Positions 221 to 58,912 of a stretch of DNA of 64,000 bases are shown piece after piece. The position numbers and the translations under genes are program-made. Source of the stretch: Arenicellaceae bacterium (GTDB taxonomy: Bacteria > Pseudomonadota > Gammaproteobacteria > Arenicellales > Arenicellaceae); assembly GCA_029246505.1 (NCBI GenBank), contig JAQWNC010000026.1, positions 1 to 64,000 on the forward strand, written 5' to 3'. Below the pieces are notes generated by a model. It saw only the letters and a program-made list of their open reading frames with translations. It was not told the origin of the DNA and did no database searches. How positions within the stretch are numbered: position 1 is the stretch's first letter; every line of letters begins with the position of its first letter.

Positions 221-679
221 TTATTGGCAATCATCCGGTGAAATTGTAACTTCAGGAAGATTGTCCCGCGCACCCTTTTGTCGGATTTCATTACGCATCT
301 CCATAAACCCTACCTTTTCTGAAGTGATAGCGCTTAATGCCATTTCTTCTTTTCCATTGCGAGCAGGCCAACCGAGAATTGTGATGGTTTCACCAATCTC
401 TGCAAATTCGCTATCGTGGCCATGTCTCTCCCATAGGCGAATCGCTTTGGTAGCAATATGCCAAGTCTCAACCCGGCCATCTGCACAAGTTGATTCTACT
501 ACCATAGTGATGTGTGGCTGCCTGTAATTGAACTCTTTAAGTATGCCAACTCGTTCAATTTTATTGTCAATATCGTAGATGGCGTAAGAGTGGTGAGCAC
601 TTGCCTCAGTTGTTCCAATCGCGAATAACGAGACAGAAATATAAACGCTACGAGTGAGTATATTCAGTGGGTTTTTCAT
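221..679 (-). CDS. DUF6152 family exported protein (short form)
   Basis: A 152-residue protein with an N-terminal signal peptide (about residues 1-28) followed at once by the HHS triplet (29-31) that marks the mature start of DUF6152 proteins. The family's usual W-x-N-P-H motif appears as YRQPH (52-56), so Trp and Asn are lost. A typical WHIATKAIRLWERHG stretch and a GETITILGWPARNG strand follow. The function of the family is unknown; a small periplasmic beta-barrel or OB-like fold is an inference. It lies 147 bp downstream of an esterase gene on the same strand, with a dispersed repeat between them. This is the most divergent of the DUF6152 copies in the window. Confidence 0.8.
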   Translation of the reverse strand: MKNPLNILTRSVYISVSLFAIGTTEASAHHSYAIYDIDNKIERVGILKEFNYRQPHITMVVESTCADGRVETWHIATKAIRLWERHGHDSEFAEIGETITILGWPARNGKEEMALSAITSEKVGFMEMRNEIRQKGARDNLPEVTISPDDCQ

Positions 680-10584: not shown

Positions 10585-10614
10585 AAATGTCCGTTAATTA
10601 CCCAAAGCGGTCAG
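10585..10614 (+). repeat. dispersed inverted repeat, copy 5, overlapping a stop codon
   Basis: AAATGTCCG ... CAAAGCGGTCA with core TTAATTACC. The terminal TCA is the TGA stop codon (minus strand) of the DUF6152 gene at 10611. Confidence 0.8.
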
Positions 10615-11624
10615 AGTTGGCAGTCGAAGGGTTTGATGACCTCGTCAGGTACCCAGGTCCAATAAGTGCCTTCGCGTCGAGCTGGCGTGGTGAGTATCGC
10701 TGGATCAGTGACTATCATTACCAAATCCAGGCGATGTTCGTCCTCAACTAAGCTGTAGCGCTCGACGACTTCAATCGCCTGGCTTATCGGTGTTCCGATA
10801 TCGTCGAAATACGGCCAGTCGATCTTCGTGGTCACGATGACCAGTTCGTTGCCTTCCCAATGCCCTACCGAGTAACCATGCGGCGTGGCAGGTGCATTTT
10901 CGGGAGCCCCCCCATTCATGTGAATCGTGCGCAGGACGTCCCACTCCTCCATATGGATATATATTGCATCACCGCCATCGACGATCTCCATAGGAAAGGG
11001 ATTATCGATGATGCCAGGCATGCCCTGCGGGATACAGCTCAGCGCGGTGTCGTCAGTGAGAGGATCGTAGTGCTGTCGCGCGGCGAGCGCTTCCGGCTTC
11101 AACGGCAGAGGTGCCTCAGCAGCGGAGCGTCCCATGGATTCTGACCCGACGCTCCAGACCCGGAATATTCCCTGTGGCTTCGTTGATTGAGTATCCGAAG
11201 TGGCCACGACACTGGCACTATCCGACAAACCAGCCTTTGTTCCGTGCCCGAATAAGCCAGGCCACAGTACGACTTCATTGCCACTGGCAAGTGTGATATG
11301 TGATGCAACCATCTGGGCCCGTCCGAATCGGGACCTATACCCCACGACCTTGATCTGGTCGCCTGGCGTAAGAATATCGCGGCTGACGCCGTCGCGCTCC
11401 AGGAAGTTCACAGCACCAGACTCAATCTCCCAAACTTCTGGCTGACCATTCTCCCCGGATGTTTTGACGGTGAATCGAATATGGGGGTTGGCCCACCGTA
11501 CACCAGTGATTGTCCCTTCAATCTCGCTGACGTTCTGATCGTCGTAAAACGCCCGAATCGAATGATGGCCAAATACCCAGTTTGGCAGTAACGCGAGCAG
11601 TAAAGCCGTAGCCAGATGTCTCAT
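10611..11624 (-). CDS. DUF6152 family exported protein (long, two-module form)
   Basis: A 337-residue protein. The ATG at 11624 is preferred to one at 11657 because a GAGGAA ribosome site sits upstream and the signal peptide (1-19) begins there. The mature protein starts HHS (20-22), with WANPH (44-48) and WEIESGAV, then a GDQIKVVGY strand: the DUF6152 domain. A linker with GIFRVWS leads to a C-terminal module of about 150 residues (GIIDNPFPMEI, RTIHMNG, GYSVGHWEGNELVI, ERYSLV) shared with the other long DUF6152 proteins in this window. The function is unknown. The 3' end overlaps a dispersed repeat. Confidence 0.85.
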   Translation of the reverse strand: MRHLATALLLALLPNWVFGHHSIRAFYDDQNVSEIEGTITGVRWANPHIRFTVKTSGENGQPEVWEIESGAVNFLERDGVSRDILTPGDQIKVVGYRSRFGRAQMVASHITLASGNEVVLWPGLFGHGTKAGLSDSASVVATSDTQSTKPQGIFRVWSVGSESMGRSAAEAPLPLKPEALAARQHYDPLTDDTALSCIPQGMPGIIDNPFPMEIVDGGDAIYIHMEEWDVLRTIHMNGGAPENAPATPHGYSVGHWEGNELVIVTTKIDWPYFDDIGTPISQAIEVVERYSLVEDEHRLDLVMIVTDPAILTTPARREGTYWTWVPDEVIKPFDCQL

Positions 11625-11754
11625 GTTTAGATTCCTCAGATATTCTACTACCTGCATATTAACAGTTCTTGCCTAACTAAAAAAACGGTCAGACCCATTG
11701 AATGAATTGCAAAACAATTAAGCGACTTATTCGCACTGCGTAGCGATATTTAAT

Positions 11755-14326: not shown

Positions 14327-15340
14327 CTAACCCTCTTCGAGCTTACAATTGTATGGCTCAACCTCATTTTCAGGAATCCAGACCCATGACTTCGATAATG
14401 TCACTGGTTCAGTAAATGCTGTTGCATCAGTCACAGTAATCTCATATTCGAGTTTTGCACCAGATTCCGTCGGCGTAAACCGCTCCGAGATCATAACTTG
14501 GTCACTTAAGATGACACCTCGCCCCGACAAATGCCCCCAATTAACATGGCTCGTCTCAACCACTAGCGTTTCGTCTTCCCAGCGACCAATAGAATGTCCC
14601 ATTATTGATGCAGCAGGTTCTACAGCAGTTTCTGAATTCATATAGATCGTGCGCACCGAGTCGTATTCTTCTATCTTTATTTCGATGACATCCCCACGAT
14701 CGTGAAACTCAAGCGGATAGGGGTTACTCATAATCGCTGGCATACCTTTTAATTGGCAATACAACAATGGGTTATCAACAGCCGGATTGAAAGCGGCTTG
14801 TAATACTTTCGCTTCTTCTGTAAGAGGGTATTCCTGCAACCAGAGAAAAAATTGTCCTCCTGAGAGTGTAGAACTCCAAACTCGGAATATTCCGAGTGTC
14901 TCCGCAGAGGTATCTCCGGTCGCAGCAAACCACTTGTTATCAGCGCTCCACATCCGGTCTGACCAGATTAAATCAGATGGCTCGGCCTTAAACTTGAAGA
15001 CAAACTCCTCACCGCTAGGTAGCAGCATGTTGTTAACAAACATACCAAACCCTTGTCTTGCCGGCCAACCTGCAACTTTGACGCTATCTCCAATCTCAAC
15101 AAAGGATTCGGGAGAATCCATTCGACGTAAAATACTCACTGAATGAGTTTCCAGTTCCCACTCGGTCCCATCTGCTGCGGAAATCGTAAAAAGTATATGT
15201 GGGTTTTGCCAAAGAACTTTAGTGATCTCCCCTTCAACCTCAACCGTTTTGCTCTGATCGAATTTAACCGCAGTACTATGGTGAGCGAATACCGAAGCAG
15301 AGGTTAGAGCAAATAAAATAAACAGGCGTCGAATCCGCAT
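14327..15340 (-). CDS. DUF6152 family exported protein (long form)
   Basis: A 337-residue protein with signal peptide 1-19, mature start HHS (20-22), WQNPH (44-48), WELETHSVSILRRM and GDSVKVAGWPARQG: the DUF6152 module. After GIFRVWS it has the C-terminal module with LKGMPAIMSNPYPLEF, YDSVRTIYMN, GHSIGRWEDETLVVETSHVNW and ERFTPTESG. The domain order is the same as in the 10611, 46745 and 57812 proteins, and closest by eye to 46745 (shared ILRRM/ILSRM and FVNNMLL/WVNNMLL stretches). The role is unknown. It appears monocistronic. Confidence 0.85.
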   Translation of the reverse strand: MRIRRLFILFALTSASVFAHHSTAVKFDQSKTVEVEGEITKVLWQNPHILFTISAADGTEWELETHSVSILRRMDSPESFVEIGDSVKVAGWPARQGFGMFVNNMLLPSGEEFVFKFKAEPSDLIWSDRMWSADNKWFAATGDTSAETLGIFRVWSSTLSGGQFFLWLQEYPLTEEAKVLQAAFNPAVDNPLLYCQLKGMPAIMSNPYPLEFHDRGDVIEIKIEEYDSVRTIYMNSETAVEPAASIMGHSIGRWEDETLVVETSHVNWGHLSGRGVILSDQVMISERFTPTESGAKLEYEITVTDATAFTEPVTLSKSWVWIPENEVEPYNCKLEEG

Positions 15341-45432: not shown

Positions 45433-45867
45433 CTAACGCTGCCGCCTATACTCCGCAAGGCTCGCATTTAAAATCTTTAGGCGCTCGAGCAAGCGACCGT
45501 CACCACCGCCAATTTCAGAGCCGTCCGACAGCGTGATATTGTTCCAGCCCATCATGTTTTCACCCGCTAGCGATGGGCTGCCGGTAATCTCAATAATATC
45601 ACCAGGTTTAAATTGTTCTGCCGACCAGCCTGACCGGCGTAGCGCTACCGAAGCATCCCCTTCGGCCATCCAACTGACGACTGTTCCATCATCATTTTTT
45701 ACGTCGATATATACCCGCGCATGCGGATTAACGAAACGAAATTGGGTAACCACACCAGTAATCGATAAACTTATATCGGTCTGATAATGCGCAGCAAAAT
45801 TATGATGCGCCAAAGAAGGCAACGTTACTAAACCGGTAAGTAATCCTAAAAGTATTTTTATTCGCAT
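45433..45867 (-). CDS. DUF6152 family exported protein (short form)
   Basis: A 144-residue protein: signal peptide 1-20, mature start HHN (21-23), FVNPH (45-49) in place of W-x-N-P-H, then VSWMAEGDASVALRRSGW and GDIIEITGSPSLAG. It has only the DUF6152 module and stops before the IFRVWS linker. The gene immediately upstream on the same strand (13-bp gap) encodes a protein resembling the missing C-terminal module, so the pair looks like a split version of the long form. Confidence 0.85.
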   Translation of the reverse strand: MRIKILLGLLTGLVTLPSLAHHNFAAHYQTDISLSITGVVTQFRFVNPHARVYIDVKNDDGTVVSWMAEGDASVALRRSGWSAEQFKPGDIIEITGSPSLAGENMMGWNNITLSDGSEIGGGDGRLLERLKILNASLAEYRRQR

Positions 45868-45880
45868 TATTTAGTACCTA

Positions 45881-46720
45881 CTAAAATTGTCCAGATATAA
45901 CTTCACAAGGCGCAAGTTCAAGACTAACTCCCGGTGTCAATATTCGAGGGCGCTCTATTACTATTGGGGCTTTTAGCATCACCGGATCATAAAGCGTAAA
46001 ACTTGTGAATAGGACATTACTCGCTTCGTTAAGTGTATAACGCTCGATACTGTGCGCTTGATCGCTATGGTGCAGACTAAGCTGATCATCAACCATCCCG
46101 GCAGAGACATTCGTTGTTTCAACTACAAGTGTTCTACCTTGGTACCAACCGACCGAGTGTCCCGCAGGCGTATTTTCGTTGTTCACCGGGTGTGCATCTC
46201 TATCGAGATAAATTGTGCGATCAACCGTCAAATCTTCGCCCTTAATAACTACTCGATCTTCAAAGGTTTCAAATTCAATTGGATCTGAATGCAAAACTGT
46301 TCTGAAGGCACCAAAACGTTCACATTGGATAGCTGGGTCATCTGCAAGATCAAATTCTGCGCCATATTTAGTGCCTGCATCATTTAAGCGATCTGCAATC
46401 ACCTCCAGAGTATGCGCCTCCAACCGTTCGACAATATCTCGCGCCGACATCCCATCTTGCGCTGGATCGTTTATTATCGATCGAAATAGTTGATTGGTTT
46501 CATCGGTACAACGACACGAAAATAAACCTTCGGTATCCCAAGCTGGGTTTTCAAATACATCAAGACTGTTAACACTCCAAACACCCGATAACTCAAATGG
46601 CGCAGACTCTTGACTGCTCGCGATACTCGCGCCAAGGCAAGTACACATTACCAGTAAAGATCCGCACACTGCTGCCACACGAATCTTAGGCAGGTACGTT
46701 TTGTTAAAACCGAAATTCAT
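45881..46720 (-). CDS. exported protein equivalent to the C-terminal module of long DUF6152 proteins
   Basis: A 279-residue protein with a signal peptide (to about residue 36). It lacks HHS and W-x-N-P-H. From about residue 40 it has LSGVWSVNSL (compare IFRVWS in the long proteins). Then come CERFGAFRTVLHSDPIEFE, VDRTIYLDRDAHP, GHSVGWYQGRTLVVETTNVS and SIERYTLNE, matching block by block the C-terminal halves of the 10611, 14327, 46745 and 57812 proteins. It is upstream of the short DUF6152 gene with a 13-bp gap and downstream of another long one (24 bp), so all three are likely one operon. Confidence 0.7.
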   Translation of the reverse strand: MNFGFNKTYLPKIRVAAVCGSLLVMCTCLGASIASSQESAPFELSGVWSVNSLDVFENPAWDTEGLFSCRCTDETNQLFRSIINDPAQDGMSARDIVERLEAHTLEVIADRLNDAGTKYGAEFDLADDPAIQCERFGAFRTVLHSDPIEFETFEDRVVIKGEDLTVDRTIYLDRDAHPVNNENTPAGHSVGWYQGRTLVVETTNVSAGMVDDQLSLHHSDQAHSIERYTLNEASNVLFTSFTLYDPVMLKAPIVIERPRILTPGVSLELAPCEVISGQF

Positions 46721-46744: not shown

Positions 46745-47791
46745 TTATTCACTTCTTGCGCACTTGTATGGATTTACTACTTCTCCTGGGCGCCAGATCC
46801 AGGCTTTATCGAGCATTACCGCCTCAGTAAACATGGCTGGATCATCAATCACTACCGTATAATCCAGTCTGCGGCCATTAGCACTAGGTGTAAAGCGCTC
46901 CAATAAATTGATAGCCTCACTCTGCATCAAACCGATTGAATTGAAATACGGATAATTAATCTGAGTTGTCGTTACAACAAGAGAACCGTCCTCCCAATAC
47001 CCATTTGAATGCCCCAACAGCGAATGCTCCGCACTTTGAGGCAGCTGCCCATTCATATAAATAGTTCGAACGCTGTCGTACTCTTCTAAGTAAAACAATA
47101 TCTTTCCATCAGCTTCTACAAACTCGATAGGATAAGGCTGCTCCATAAGCCAAATCATTCCCTTAGGCTCACAATTAGCAATGGGACTATTATACGGATC
47201 AAACTTTGCCAGCGCAGCCTTTGAGGCTTCCGTCAAAGGATAGCTATCAGCCCAAAGCGATCGATCATCACTAGTAAAATGTGTACTCCAAACCCTGAAT
47301 ATACTCGTTGACTCAGTCTCGCCCTCTTCTATTTCCGACCCACCTGCTAACCAGGTATTCTCATTGCCAACTTTTTCTCCGGTCCAAACCCGAGCAACCC
47401 CAGGTCGTAACACAACTTCCTGACCGTTATCCAAAAGCATATTGTTTACCCACATGGCGTTACTTCCATTAATCGCGCCATATCCGGCAACCCTAATGCT
47501 GTCGCCAACACCAATAATGTCACTTGGAATATCCATACGGCTCAGAATACTCACCGAATTAGATTCGATATCCCACGACACCCCATCAGCATCGAGAATC
47601 GAGAAACGTATATGGGGGTTACGCCAAATGACACTGGTAACTTCACCCTCCACTTCGGTCATAGTGTTCATATCGAATACGCCAGCAAACGCATGGTGCG
47701 CGATAGCAGAATTTGAGATTAATAAGCAACCGATTGCAGTCAAAAACAAAGTGCGAAAACATCGGTTCGTAATTTTTCTAAGTATAGCCAT
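46745..47791 (-). CDS. DUF6152 family exported protein (long form)
   Basis: A 348-residue protein: signal peptide to about residue 31, HHA (32-34), WRNPH (56-60), WDIESNSVSILSRM and GDSIRVAGYGAING, then SIFRVWS. The C-terminal module follows: PKGMIWLMEQPYPIEF, YDSVRTIYMN, GHSNGYWEDGSLVVTTTQINYP and ERFTPSANG. It is first in a three-gene minus-strand run with the split pair at 45881 and 45433. Confidence 0.85.
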   Translation of the reverse strand: MAILRKITNRCFRTLFLTAIGCLLISNSAIAHHAFAGVFDMNTMTEVEGEVTSVIWRNPHIRFSILDADGVSWDIESNSVSILSRMDIPSDIIGVGDSIRVAGYGAINGSNAMWVNNMLLDNGQEVVLRPGVARVWTGEKVGNENTWLAGGSEIEEGETESTSIFRVWSTHFTSDDRSLWADSYPLTEASKAALAKFDPYNSPIANCEPKGMIWLMEQPYPIEFVEADGKILFYLEEYDSVRTIYMNGQLPQSAEHSLLGHSNGYWEDGSLVVTTTQINYPYFNSIGLMQSEAINLLERFTPSANGRRLDYTVVIDDPAMFTEAVMLDKAWIWRPGEVVNPYKCARSE

Positions 47792-53033: not shown

Positions 53034-54116
53034 ATGAGAACCAGATATATTTTATTTCTAATTTGTAGTTTTTTAATTTTTAGAATCGCGGTTGTTCATT
53101 CTCAGACAGATAAGCCCCTGGAGTTATGGGCGCCTATACCCGAGTGGGCTTACGGTTATGACTCTCAGCCACAGTTAGGTGATAAGCCGCCTATTCCAAC
53201 TCCGGGGAACAGAGCGCTCCAGTCTGGAGAAGATGCGAAAGAACTCTCTAGGCCCCTTACGCTTGAGGGGAGTAGTGCTACTTTCTCTCGTCAGGAAATT
53301 CGTCATGCTCAGGACGTCATTGACTGGTTCCCGGAGGACTATCCGCCGATGGCGGAGATCATTAAGTACGGGCCTGAAGCCCTTAGAGGTGGTGAACCAG
53401 ATTGGGCTTGTGGCTCCTGCCATCTACCCAATGGTAAGGGACGTCCTTCGAACGCACCTGTTGCCGGGTTATCGGCCGAGTACATGATTCAGCAATTGTA
53501 TGATTTTCGAAAAGGCTTGCGTTACAGCGCTGACCCTAGAAAACCGAACACGCCAAATATGATCCGAATGGCTAGAGCGATGACCGAGGAAGAGATAAAG
53601 AAATCTGCCGAGTTTTGGGCGGCCGTCCCGTGGACGCGCCGCTACAATGTAATAGAAGCAGATCTGATTCCAAAGATGTATCTAAATCCGAATAATAATA
53701 TGTTTTTTACAGTCGGGACGGAACCAACAGAGCCGCTTGCAGGGCGCATTATTGAAAGCCCCATTGATACCTATCAGGTGGATTATCTCCGTAACCCGCG
53801 TACTGGCTTTAATGTTTATGTCCCGGTGGGGAGTCTAGCCAAAGGGGAGGAACTTGTTACAACTGGTGGCGGAAAGACAATTCAGTGTAATATCTGTCAC
53901 GGGCAGGATCTTAACGGTCTCGATATGGTTCCCCCCATCGCCGGCCGGTCGCCCAGCTATGTGATGCGTCAGTTATACGACTTCAGACAGGGAACTAGGA
54001 ATGGTATTAGTTCGCAACTAATGAAACCTACTGTAGCGAACTTAAGTATTGAAGACATGACAAATATCGCCTCCTATCTAGCTTCCATTATTCCATCTAG
54101 CTCAGGAGGCACATAG
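53034..54116 (+). CDS. exported dihaem cytochrome c
   Basis: A 360-residue protein. The ATG at 53034 follows GGGAG by 7 bases and starts a signal peptide (to about residue 23). Two c-type haem sites: CGSCH (126-130) and CNICH (285-289). Each is followed by a matching block (YMIQQLYDFRKGLR and YVMRQLYDFRQGTR), so the protein is an internal duplication of two cytochrome domains. It acts in periplasmic electron transfer. It is the first gene of a three-gene plus-strand operon with DUF6152 and another exported protein, suggesting the DUF6152 partner works with it. Confidence 0.9.
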   Translation: MRTRYILFLICSFLIFRIAVVHSQTDKPLELWAPIPEWAYGYDSQPQLGDKPPIPTPGNRALQSGEDAKELSRPLTLEGSSATFSRQEIRHAQDVIDWFPEDYPPMAEIIKYGPEALRGGEPDWACGSCHLPNGKGRPSNAPVAGLSAEYMIQQLYDFRKGLRYSADPRKPNTPNMIRMARAMTEEEIKKSAEFWAAVPWTRRYNVIEADLIPKMYLNPNNNMFFTVGTEPTEPLAGRIIESPIDTYQVDYLRNPRTGFNVYVPVGSLAKGEELVTTGGGKTIQCNICHGQDLNGLDMVPPIAGRSPSYVMRQLYDFRQGTRNGISSQLMKPTVANLSIEDMTNIASYLASIIPSSSGGT

Positions 54117-54120
54117 CCTT

Positions 54121-54540
54121 ATGTATAAAGTTAAATCATACTTGAAGAATCAAGCTTCTAGAAAACAGAAGGTGTTGTTAAGAGTGCTAATCCTTGGGAG
54201 CGCTGCGTTAATCTATGGAAGTGTTATATGGGCCCATCACTCTCATGCCAATTTCGATATGACGTTATATACTAAGCTTGAAGGTAGAGTAAAAGAAATC
54301 CTTTGGATCAATCCTCATATTTGGATTTTTATTGAAGTTGTGGATGATAACGGTAAAGCGGTGCAGTGGGCATTAGAGTCCGCGACGCCGATTCAATTAG
54401 CTAAAAGTGGGGTGACTCGGGACACTGTCCATGAAGGAGATATGGTCTCCGTGCGCTGCCACCGCCTTAAAGATAATGCGAATGGTTGTTTGCTCGGATA
54501 TTTAACCGGACGGGATAATGTGGAAAGGCTCTGGGATTAA
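54121..54540 (+). CDS. DUF6152 family exported protein (short form, cytochrome-linked)
   Basis: A 139-residue protein with an N-terminal hydrophobic segment (about 19-37), HHS (39-41), WINPH (62-66), WALESATPIQLAKSG and GDMVSVRCHRLKD. It has the DUF6152 module only. It starts 4 bp after the cytochrome c stop and shares its TAA with the ATG of the next gene, so it is firmly in an operon with a dihaem cytochrome. This is the clearest functional hint for DUF6152 in the window. Confidence 0.88.
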   Translation: MYKVKSYLKNQASRKQKVLLRVLILGSAALIYGSVIWAHHSHANFDMTLYTKLEGRVKEILWINPHIWIFIEVVDDNGKAVQWALESATPIQLAKSGVTRDTVHEGDMVSVRCHRLKDNANGCLLGYLTGRDNVERLWD

Positions 54541-55217
54541 TGAAACGTATAACACAGCTCATATTTACATCATTAGCTTTTCTGAGCGCTTTGCCTGTTT
54601 TTGCCCAGATCGAGTATATACATCGATCTGACCGATTCGCTATAACGTTCCCGAATATACCAGAGGTCGATGAACGGACTCGACTATCCGCGCATGGTGT
54701 GATATTTCCGGCACGAGTATATTCTGCTTATAGTAGCTCCGGTAATTACTCATTAACGCTAGTCGACTATACAGAGGCTGAAAAGAGGCACCGCGCACGT
54801 TTAGACCAAACGGATGCAAGCTCGGGGGCTACTTTTTGGGTGATGGATGTCCGAGCATCCGTTGCCCACGAAGCTCAGAGTATCCGCGAGAGCGTTCGCG
54901 ATGCGGGTGGTGAGATCACTTATGAGGGTTGGGCGGATATTGACAAGATCGAAGGACACCAAATGCAGATTACGAATAAGGATCAGTCTCGAAGTTTTAT
55001 TGGAATCCATTTAAATGCTAGCCGCCTTTATATTCTTGAGGCGACTTCCCCACAAGGCTTTCCGCCGCCCGCATGGTTTCAACAGTCACTTCAATTTATC
55101 GATGAGAATGGACAGCGGATTCGATATACATTCGATACCGATGGTCAGAGGACGAATATTCGAATTGTACCCCTAGCGGATGTTCCTGAGGGGGTAAGGC
55201 GGGTCATAGTGGAATAA
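54540..55217 (+). CDS. exported protein of unknown function in cytochrome c operon
   Basis: A 225-residue protein with signal peptide (1-22, ending VFAQ) and no Cys in the mature part. The pattern DRFAITFPNIPEVDERTRLSAHG, a central SGATFWVMDVRASVAHEA and late RLYILEATSPQGFPPPAWFQQSLQF recalls PsbP/DUF1795-like secreted folds, but I cannot assign it firmly. Translation is coupled to the DUF6152 gene through a TAATG overlap. Confidence 0.7.
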   Translation: MKRITQLIFTSLAFLSALPVFAQIEYIHRSDRFAITFPNIPEVDERTRLSAHGVIFPARVYSAYSSSGNYSLTLVDYTEAEKRHRARLDQTDASSGATFWVMDVRASVAHEAQSIRESVRDAGGEITYEGWADIDKIEGHQMQITNKDQSRSFIGIHLNASRLYILEATSPQGFPPPAWFQQSLQFIDENGQRIRYTFDTDGQRTNIRIVPLADVPEGVRRVIVE

Positions 55218-57811: not shown

Positions 57812-58912
57812 CTATTCCGATGTGACGACTTCTGCTGCACAGTCAAACTTGACCATAGCGGTACCCGGTTGCCAACGCCACGCACGCTCCAGTTCGATTG
57901 GCGCGGTCAGATTAACTGGATCTGTAGCTACAATCGAGTAATTCAGTTGACTATCGTCTTCAGCAATCCAAAAGGTTTCTTTGTAGGTCATCTGATCGGA
58001 TTGCGGTGTACCGTATGGGTCAAAGTACGGCCAATCAATATGAGTGGTTTCAACAATCAATTTCCCGCCTTCCAAATACCCAACGGAATAACCAAGGTTA
58101 CTGGCAACTGGTTCTGGTCGGTCATCGGTCATATGCACTACACGCACTAAATCATGCTCTTCAGTATGAATAAGTATGCGGTCACCATCGTTAATAATTT
58201 CCATTGGGACTGGGTCAAACATATTGGTAGGTACACCTGAGCGACAATCAAGTTCAGGGTTATCTGTAGCGGCAAAATATTCTGCAGCACTCGCCTCGCC
58301 TATCTCAGTTAATAAGCCCGCATACGCTTCAGGAACAGGTCGTGGGCTGGGACGTCGACCCCAAACCCGAAAGAAACCATCGGCAGAATCTTTTGCTGCT
58401 TGCACTGCCGCAGGATCAAATGATTTTTGAATCAGCACCATTTGTTCAGTCGACCACAGCAATTTACCATTCCTACTATTATTTGGGCCAGGACCTGCAG
58501 TTATCATTTCTTCGCCGTTAGGCATTAGCAAATTAATTAGCCCAATCGCTACGGGGTCACGCATTGATACAACACCAGCAGCTTTGACTTTGTCACCAAC
58601 TTTAAGAAAGTCCTTAGTGATACCTTCAGCTGCGTAGCTATTCAGGCTACCACCCATTTCTAACTCCCATTCTTTTTCTACACCCTGCTCATCAACCACC
58701 TTAAGCATCAACCTTGGATGTGGGTTACGCCAGAAAATAGTCGTTATCTCACCTTCCAGCCTGAGTAAATTATCAGCTAGGTACAACTCCGGGTTTGAAT
58801 TACTACCGTGGTGCGAGAGGGCTACCGGAGACAAGCCTATGCCTAAAAATACCGATATTGTCGTTACAAACTTGCAACACGCAGACCAAAAACTCTTTAA
58901 TCTAATTCTCAT
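57812..58912 (-). CDS. DUF6152 family exported protein (long form)
   Basis: A 366-residue protein: signal peptide to about residue 33, HHG (34-36), WRNPH (61-65), WELEMGGSLNSYAAEG and GDKVKAAGVVSMRD, then GFFRVWG and the C-terminal module. That module shows SGVPTNMFDPVPMEI, HDLVRVVHM, GYSVGYLEGGKLIVETTHIDWPYFDPYG and ETFWIAEDD. It differs from the other long copies by a longer middle segment (about residues 135-200). Monocistronic by spacing. Confidence 0.85.
   Translation of the reverse strand: MRIRLKSFWSACCKFVTTISVFLGIGLSPVALSHHGSNSNPELYLADNLLRLEGEITTIFWRNPHPRLMLKVVDEQGVEKEWELEMGGSLNSYAAEGITKDFLKVGDKVKAAGVVSMRDPVAIGLINLLMPNGEEMITAGPGPNNSRNGKLLWSTEQMVLIQKSFDPAAVQAAKDSADGFFRVWGRRPSPRPVPEAYAGLLTEIGEASAAEYFAATDNPELDCRSGVPTNMFDPVPMEIINDGDRILIHTEEHDLVRVVHMTDDRPEPVASNLGYSVGYLEGGKLIVETTHIDWPYFDPYGTPQSDQMTYKETFWIAEDDSQLNYSIVATDPVNLTAPIELERAWRWQPGTAMVKFDCAAEVVTSE

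Follow-up and report, generated by a model that had tools for sequence, protein, structure and literature searches.

A histidine at the N-terminus of a protein is a natural metal chelator. Signal strapping has uncovered the N-terminal-histidine metalloproteins DUF4198, DUF6702, Ang-1 and Ang-2, for which, according to that paper, metal binding by the histidine left after the signal peptide was predicted and then shown; DUF4198 binds nickel, and DUF6702 and the anglerases are further cases (PMC12537917). DUF6152, the subject of this analysis, resembles these families, as they are described there, in being exported, in having a predicted His1 after cleavage and a further conserved histidine, and in a function on which homology is silent; it differs from them in its OB-fold model, two histidines at the start, a dedicated partner gene and 47-192 copies per genome. 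Within the passages of its main text considered here, that paper does not name DUF6152 or use the term OB fold, and a literature search found no paper naming DUF6152 or PF19649.

For a copper histidine brace, a second histidine is required in addition to the N-terminal one (PMC10952591). The mononuclear Cu of the brace is bound by the NH2 and N-delta of His1, and the second His makes up a T-shaped N3 site. Proteins with this site (LPMO, CopC, pMMO/PmoB, X325, Bim1) share with DUF6152 the N-terminal histidine (predicted in DUF6152) plus an internal conserved histidine, a likeness of sequence pattern, no sequence relationship having been found. CusF and SilF are periplasmic Cu(I)/Ag(I) carriers built on OB folds (PMC10656224), and DUF6152 is, like these chaperones, a small periplasmic protein with an OB fold (here predicted) and conserved Trp and His. 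No sequence match joins them, CusF is not among the fold matches listed, which excludes nothing, and unlike for CusF/SilF no efflux genes were seen near DUF6152. The ligands of CusF and SilF are placed differently from those of DUF6152. Members of the cytochrome c4/c552 dihaem family, of about 190 amino acids, possess two c-type domains and two CxxCH motifs, as does the cytochrome studied here, which at 360 residues is longer, being extended at its N-terminus and having a long linker.

The locus lies in a 64-kb stretch of DNA (the whole stretch analysed, hereafter the window) and comprises three genes (Table 1). The cytochrome c gene starts with an ATG at 53034, with GGGAG ahead of it, and stops at 54114-54116; 4 bp (54117-54120) separate it from the DUF6152 gene (54121-54540), and the third gene opens with an ATG at 54540-54542 whose first base is the last A of the TAA of the DUF6152 gene (54538-54540). 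The original prediction of a two-domain cytochrome c followed after 4 bp by DUF6152 and an exported third protein agrees with these coordinates and with the domain matches; the stop codon which it described as shared does overlap the next start, by its final A (1 nt), and is not common to both genes as a whole. N-terminal signal sequences were recognized by inspection on all three products. The cytochrome matches PF00034 at 5.7e-9 and PF13442 at 7.9e-7, and its two c domains with CxxCH, together with similarity to a solved c4 (6q2u), place it as c4-like. The second product scores 91.7 bits against PF19649 (cut-off 27). The third, predicted earlier to be exported and of unknown function, has a signal peptide and no match in Pfam or NCBIfam. 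Scanning the locus for promoters and terminators gave consensus matches at the shuffled expectation and none above the shuffles.

Table 1. Features of the locus and other DUF6152 genes of the window
Feature	Position	Strand	Support
Exported c4-like dihaem cytochrome c, 360 aa	53034..54116	+	PF00034/PF13442; phmmer to c4 6q2u 2.9e-16; two CxxCH
Haem motif 1, CGSCH	53409..53423	+	sequence
Haem motif 2, CNICH	53886..53900	+	sequence
DUF6152, single-domain, 139 aa, third-gene-pairing subfamily	54121..54540	+	PF19649 91.7 bits; clade SH-aLRT 99
Predicted mature DUF6152 chain, HHSH start, OB-fold model	54235..54537	+	cleavage-site statistics; AlphaFold2 pLDDT 93.7; Z 9.6 to PriB
Conserved H1, H2, H4, H28 (NPH), H76, Cys75/Cys85 of mature DUF6152 chain	54235..54537	+	residue counts
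Third gene, exported protein with predicted PsbP/MOG1/DcrB-like fold, 225 aa, DUF6152 partner	54540..55217	+	70 homologous loci; pLDDT 92.8; Z 11.9 to CyanoP 2xb3
Predicted mature third protein, start QIEYIH	54606..55214	+	signal peptide by inspection; part that was modelled
DUF6152, single-domain	221..679	-	
DUF6152 fused to C-terminal domain without Pfam family	10611..11657	-	
DUF6152 fused to C-terminal domain, same as in 10611-11657	14327..15340	-	
DUF6152, single-domain, just downstream of separate C-terminal-domain gene 45881-46720	45433..45867	-	
DUF6152 fusion protein	46745..47791	-	
DUF6152 fusion protein	57812..58912	-	

An HH followed by a P[HY] motif was present in 154 of 156 DUF6152 matches; of the two exceptions, one is a frame that lacks the N-terminal part and the other a variant reading HH...NSH. 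The 149 distinct proteins analyzed were picked for HH before P[HY], a filter which only 2 of the 156 matches failed. Among them 145 have A, G or S at -1 of the HH (115 Ala, 19 Gly and 11 Ser) and A, V, S, T, L, G or I at -3, and this signal-peptidase-like pattern is strongest at offset 0 (145), followed by +5 (105) and -2 (74). The small-residue|HH junction recurs in 30 of 31 diverse sequences of the wider phylum sample. Since the site, placed by the -3/-1 rule and not by a trained predictor, falls exactly before the HH, the mature protein should begin with His-His, which puts a predicted histidine at position 1 in 145/149 proteins. H28, in an NPH motif, is 99% conserved by weight, and H1, H2 and H28 are the only near-invariant coordinating residues, all others reaching 79% at most. 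The subfamily of the partner type (47 HHSH-type sequences) has invariant H4, W30 and H76 in addition. Of the 149 proteins, 45 have both Cys75 and Cys85, 102 have neither and 2 have one of them; that they appear and vanish together, and that the model places them on the two adjacent strands of its final hairpin, makes a disulphide between them likely in the partner-type proteins.

A near-identical block with an HHSHVP-type DUF6152 gene and its neighbours occurs in both species of the genus (L034:6918-9431 and L045:5044-7557). It is far more alike than other paralogues are, and may reflect recent transfer or bin contamination.

Both folds discussed here come from models. DUF6152 is predicted to form an OB barrel, with residues 1-10 modelled at the lowest confidence (mean pLDDT 79) and with PriB as the best fold match (81 residues, rmsd 2.6). 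A PDB sequence search with the DUF6152 profile returned no chain at E < 0.45; the weak matches to PriB (E 0.45) fit the OB-fold model and are no evidence of DNA binding. A common fold by itself reveals no function. SSB-like DNA binding was rejected because DUF6152 is exported, a lipoprotein because it has no lipobox Cys, and a CcmE-like haem chaperone on the position of the histidine, which in CcmE lies in a different place. The third protein is predicted to have a PsbP/MOG1/DcrB-like domain, matching CyanoP over 131 residues (rmsd 2.9). The likeness to PsbP/CyanoP, DcrB and MOG1 is one of fold at 10% identity, and extra C-terminal strands of the third protein lie outside the match; a Pfam search with 8 members gave no PsbP or DcrB match even with E values as high as 1, and PDB profile searches with this protein gave nothing convincing. 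Polymer binding being common among OB folds, DUF6152 could be a metal-free ligand- or polymer-binding OB domain, with the His-His start serving as a signal in structure or processing. Without coordination, however, it is difficult to account for two adjacent invariant histidines at the predicted mature terminus and a PH motif that is near-invariant throughout the phylum, and we consider this reading most improbable.

No third gene or DUF6152 gene was found in relatives outside the genus within the same family and order (zero DUF6152 in 39 other genomes), which left no local synteny to compare there; the third gene was searched for across GTDB. This gave 70 further loci, in Gammaproteobacteria, metagenome-assembled genomes (MAGs) filed under Rhodospirillaceae, Acidobacteria and others, besides 6 copies in the genome of the window and 2 in the sister species. 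The 86 third genes scored have a same-strand single-domain DUF6152 gene directly upstream in 30 cases and directly downstream in 16; the others comprise 8 at a contig edge, 9 in tandem, 2 beside a fused DUF6152 and 21 with none of these. A single-domain DUF6152 is thus directly beside 46 of the 78 that lie off contig edges, and the pairing survives the change of gene order. Chance adjacency would yield a few such cases, DUF6152 making up roughly 4% of genes. About a quarter of third genes stand beside neither a DUF6152 gene nor a second copy, often in Acidobacteria, so the third protein would be able to act alone. In an alphaproteobacterial MAG three PsbP-like third genes stand in tandem with no DUF6152 nearby (L088:7947-9879). 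Third-gene reading frames are long in L075, L093, L097 and L118, probably because their starts were set too far upstream in GC-rich DNA and not through fusion.

Distances between the paired proteins correlate with r = 0.74 over 43 pairs, which none of 2000 within-genome shuffles reached (best 0.52); specific DUF6152 and third proteins therefore co-diverge. In the genome of the window the partner-adjacent DUF6152 proteins group in a single clade (none of 500 shuffles gave as low a value). In a tree of 69 DUF6152 sequences from this genome and the sister species, the 5 copies labelled as partner-adjacent share a branch with SH-aLRT 99, two such copies of the sister species being left out as duplicates of L071 and L078. 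Layout, cleavage pattern, conserved residues, pairing and co-divergence are all read from sequence, and on that basis the conserved unit is the predicted exported DUF6152/third-gene pair and not a cytochrome operon.

The order cytochrome, DUF6152, third gene is confined to the window, with no repeat among the 70 loci and the copies of the own genus, and among the 43 pairs listed in the co-divergence analysis only that of the window has a cytochrome directly upstream. Around the third genes most similar to that of the window (L049-L052, 63-67% identical), the cytochrome is absent from the vicinity in L049, L050 and L051 and convergent on the other strand in L052; in two of these genomes the orthologous cytochromes (77-78%) belong to a different tandem cytochrome pair (L178, L179). 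As a family, the cytochromes are enriched beside DUF6152: in 15 genomes DUF6152 adjoins 19 of 56 homologues against 3.9 expected by density (binomial 3e-9, the real significance being lower because orthologous loci are counted repeatedly among the 19), and the third gene adjoins 6. The order third gene, cytochrome, fused DUF6152 is found in L188, L194 and L195. The association appears genuine but loose. A fixed three-protein operon, in which the dihaem cytochrome exchanges electrons with DUF6152 and the third protein, would account for the tight spacing in the window and draws on the same enrichment; with the gene order nowhere else, the cytochrome of the closest relatives elsewhere or on the other strand, and some of the 19 loci counted more than once, it is quite unlikely. 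Conserved synteny, which the original prediction had named as its own refuting test, thus fails for the three genes and holds strongly for the DUF6152/third-gene pair. The proposed tie of DUF6152 to periplasmic electron transfer keeps a loose statistical association without a fixed operon, so that a redox link is plausible but loose, and the small undescribed redox system stays a proposal.

Two further observations concern the paralogous cytochromes. In both species of the genus, a dihaem paralogue stands next to genes for a CstA-type transporter and a fused DUF6152 protein (L017:13548-16361, L038:6992-9840, L078:1136-3984), and one paralogue of the own genome is split into two reading frames (L191:6204-7181), possibly as a pseudogene or through an assembly error.

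The genome of the window (2.64 Mb, 97.5% complete) has about 100 DUF6152 matches and the sister species 40; in a 398-genome sample of the phylum the next highest count is 8. The 13 counted relatives with the third gene are all rich in DUF6152, with 47 to about 190 matches (up to 192), two of the counts resting on 150 scored of 159 and 192 candidates. Seven members of this huge paralogous set fall in the window. The prevailing architectures are two, one short and single-domain, the other a fusion to a C-terminal domain of about 250 aa, for which profile searches gave no convincing Pfam or PDB match; the same domain is also found as a separate gene beside DUF6152 and is probably a second, commoner partner. 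Its consensus, PDxSGxW ... GDSxGxWEGDTLVVET ... HS, occurs behind or beside DUF6152 in dozens of copies (45881-46720, 46745-47791, 57812-58912, 10611-11657 and 14327-15340 in the window; L037:13949-15505). Around DUF6152, in the window and its genome, there are many exported amidohydrolases, amidases, beta-propeller lactonase-like proteins and aldo/keto reductases as well as apparent xanthine-dehydrogenase-type genes, a setting as in degraders of diverse organic matter.

These numbers bear on whether DUF6152 and its partner could, without catalysis of their own, chaperone or scavenge metal in the periplasm and supply metalloenzymes or importers with Cu or Ni. An N-terminal histidine has a similar role in CopC, YcnI, DUF4198 and the anglerases (PMC8424229, PMC12537917), and the OB folds of CusF and SilF set a precedent in metal carriage. 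Yet 47-192 copies per genome are many more than metal traffic would be expected to require, and the recognisable neighbours are mostly hydrolases and dehydrogenases and not metal transporters; we regard such a role as unlikely. The high copy number would rather point to diversification by substrate or partner.

The reading we prefer, to which we give a probability of roughly one half, is that DUF6152 is exported and belongs with the N-terminal-histidine metalloproteins, that a PsbP-like protein is its dedicated partner, the two forming the core of a periplasmic module, and that in some genomes a c4-type cytochrome serves them. Following export and removal of the signal peptide the DUF6152 chain would start with His-His; the terminal amine and the first histidine, probably with the histidine of the NPH loop, would chelate a transition metal on the OB barrel, most likely Cu(II) or Ni(II). 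Metal binding, physical contact and electron transfer are steps that we infer: the partner, of predicted PsbP/MOG1 fold, would bind its own DUF6152 subfamily and shape, load or use the metal site, and the c4-type cytochrome would be an electron carrier recruited beside the pair in the genome of the window, not obligatory, which may feed or drain that site. A bolder version sees in the DUF6152 proteins copper enzymes with a histidine brace on an OB fold, acting as oxidases or oxygenases on small molecules of the periplasm. They would have diversified to 50-190 copies per genome, every one having a partner domain of its own (PsbP-like, or the unnamed domain in fused or adjacent form), with c4-type cytochromes serving them; this version is very unlikely.

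New here are the HH cleavage junction, the predicted OB barrel, the PsbP-like third protein and the presence of about 100 DUF6152 copies in 2.64 Mb, and the His-His family is a more interesting feature than the operon. With DUF6152, a large family of periplasmic metalloproteins may have been overlooked. If its His-His start does bind metal, the family, with up to about 190 copies in the genome of an environmental bacterium, would be among the larger known expansions of N-terminal-histidine metalloproteins, here on a predicted OB barrel, and very many unannotated proteins would gain a hypothesis for their role, one that is cheap to test on a predicted mature chain of only 101 residues.
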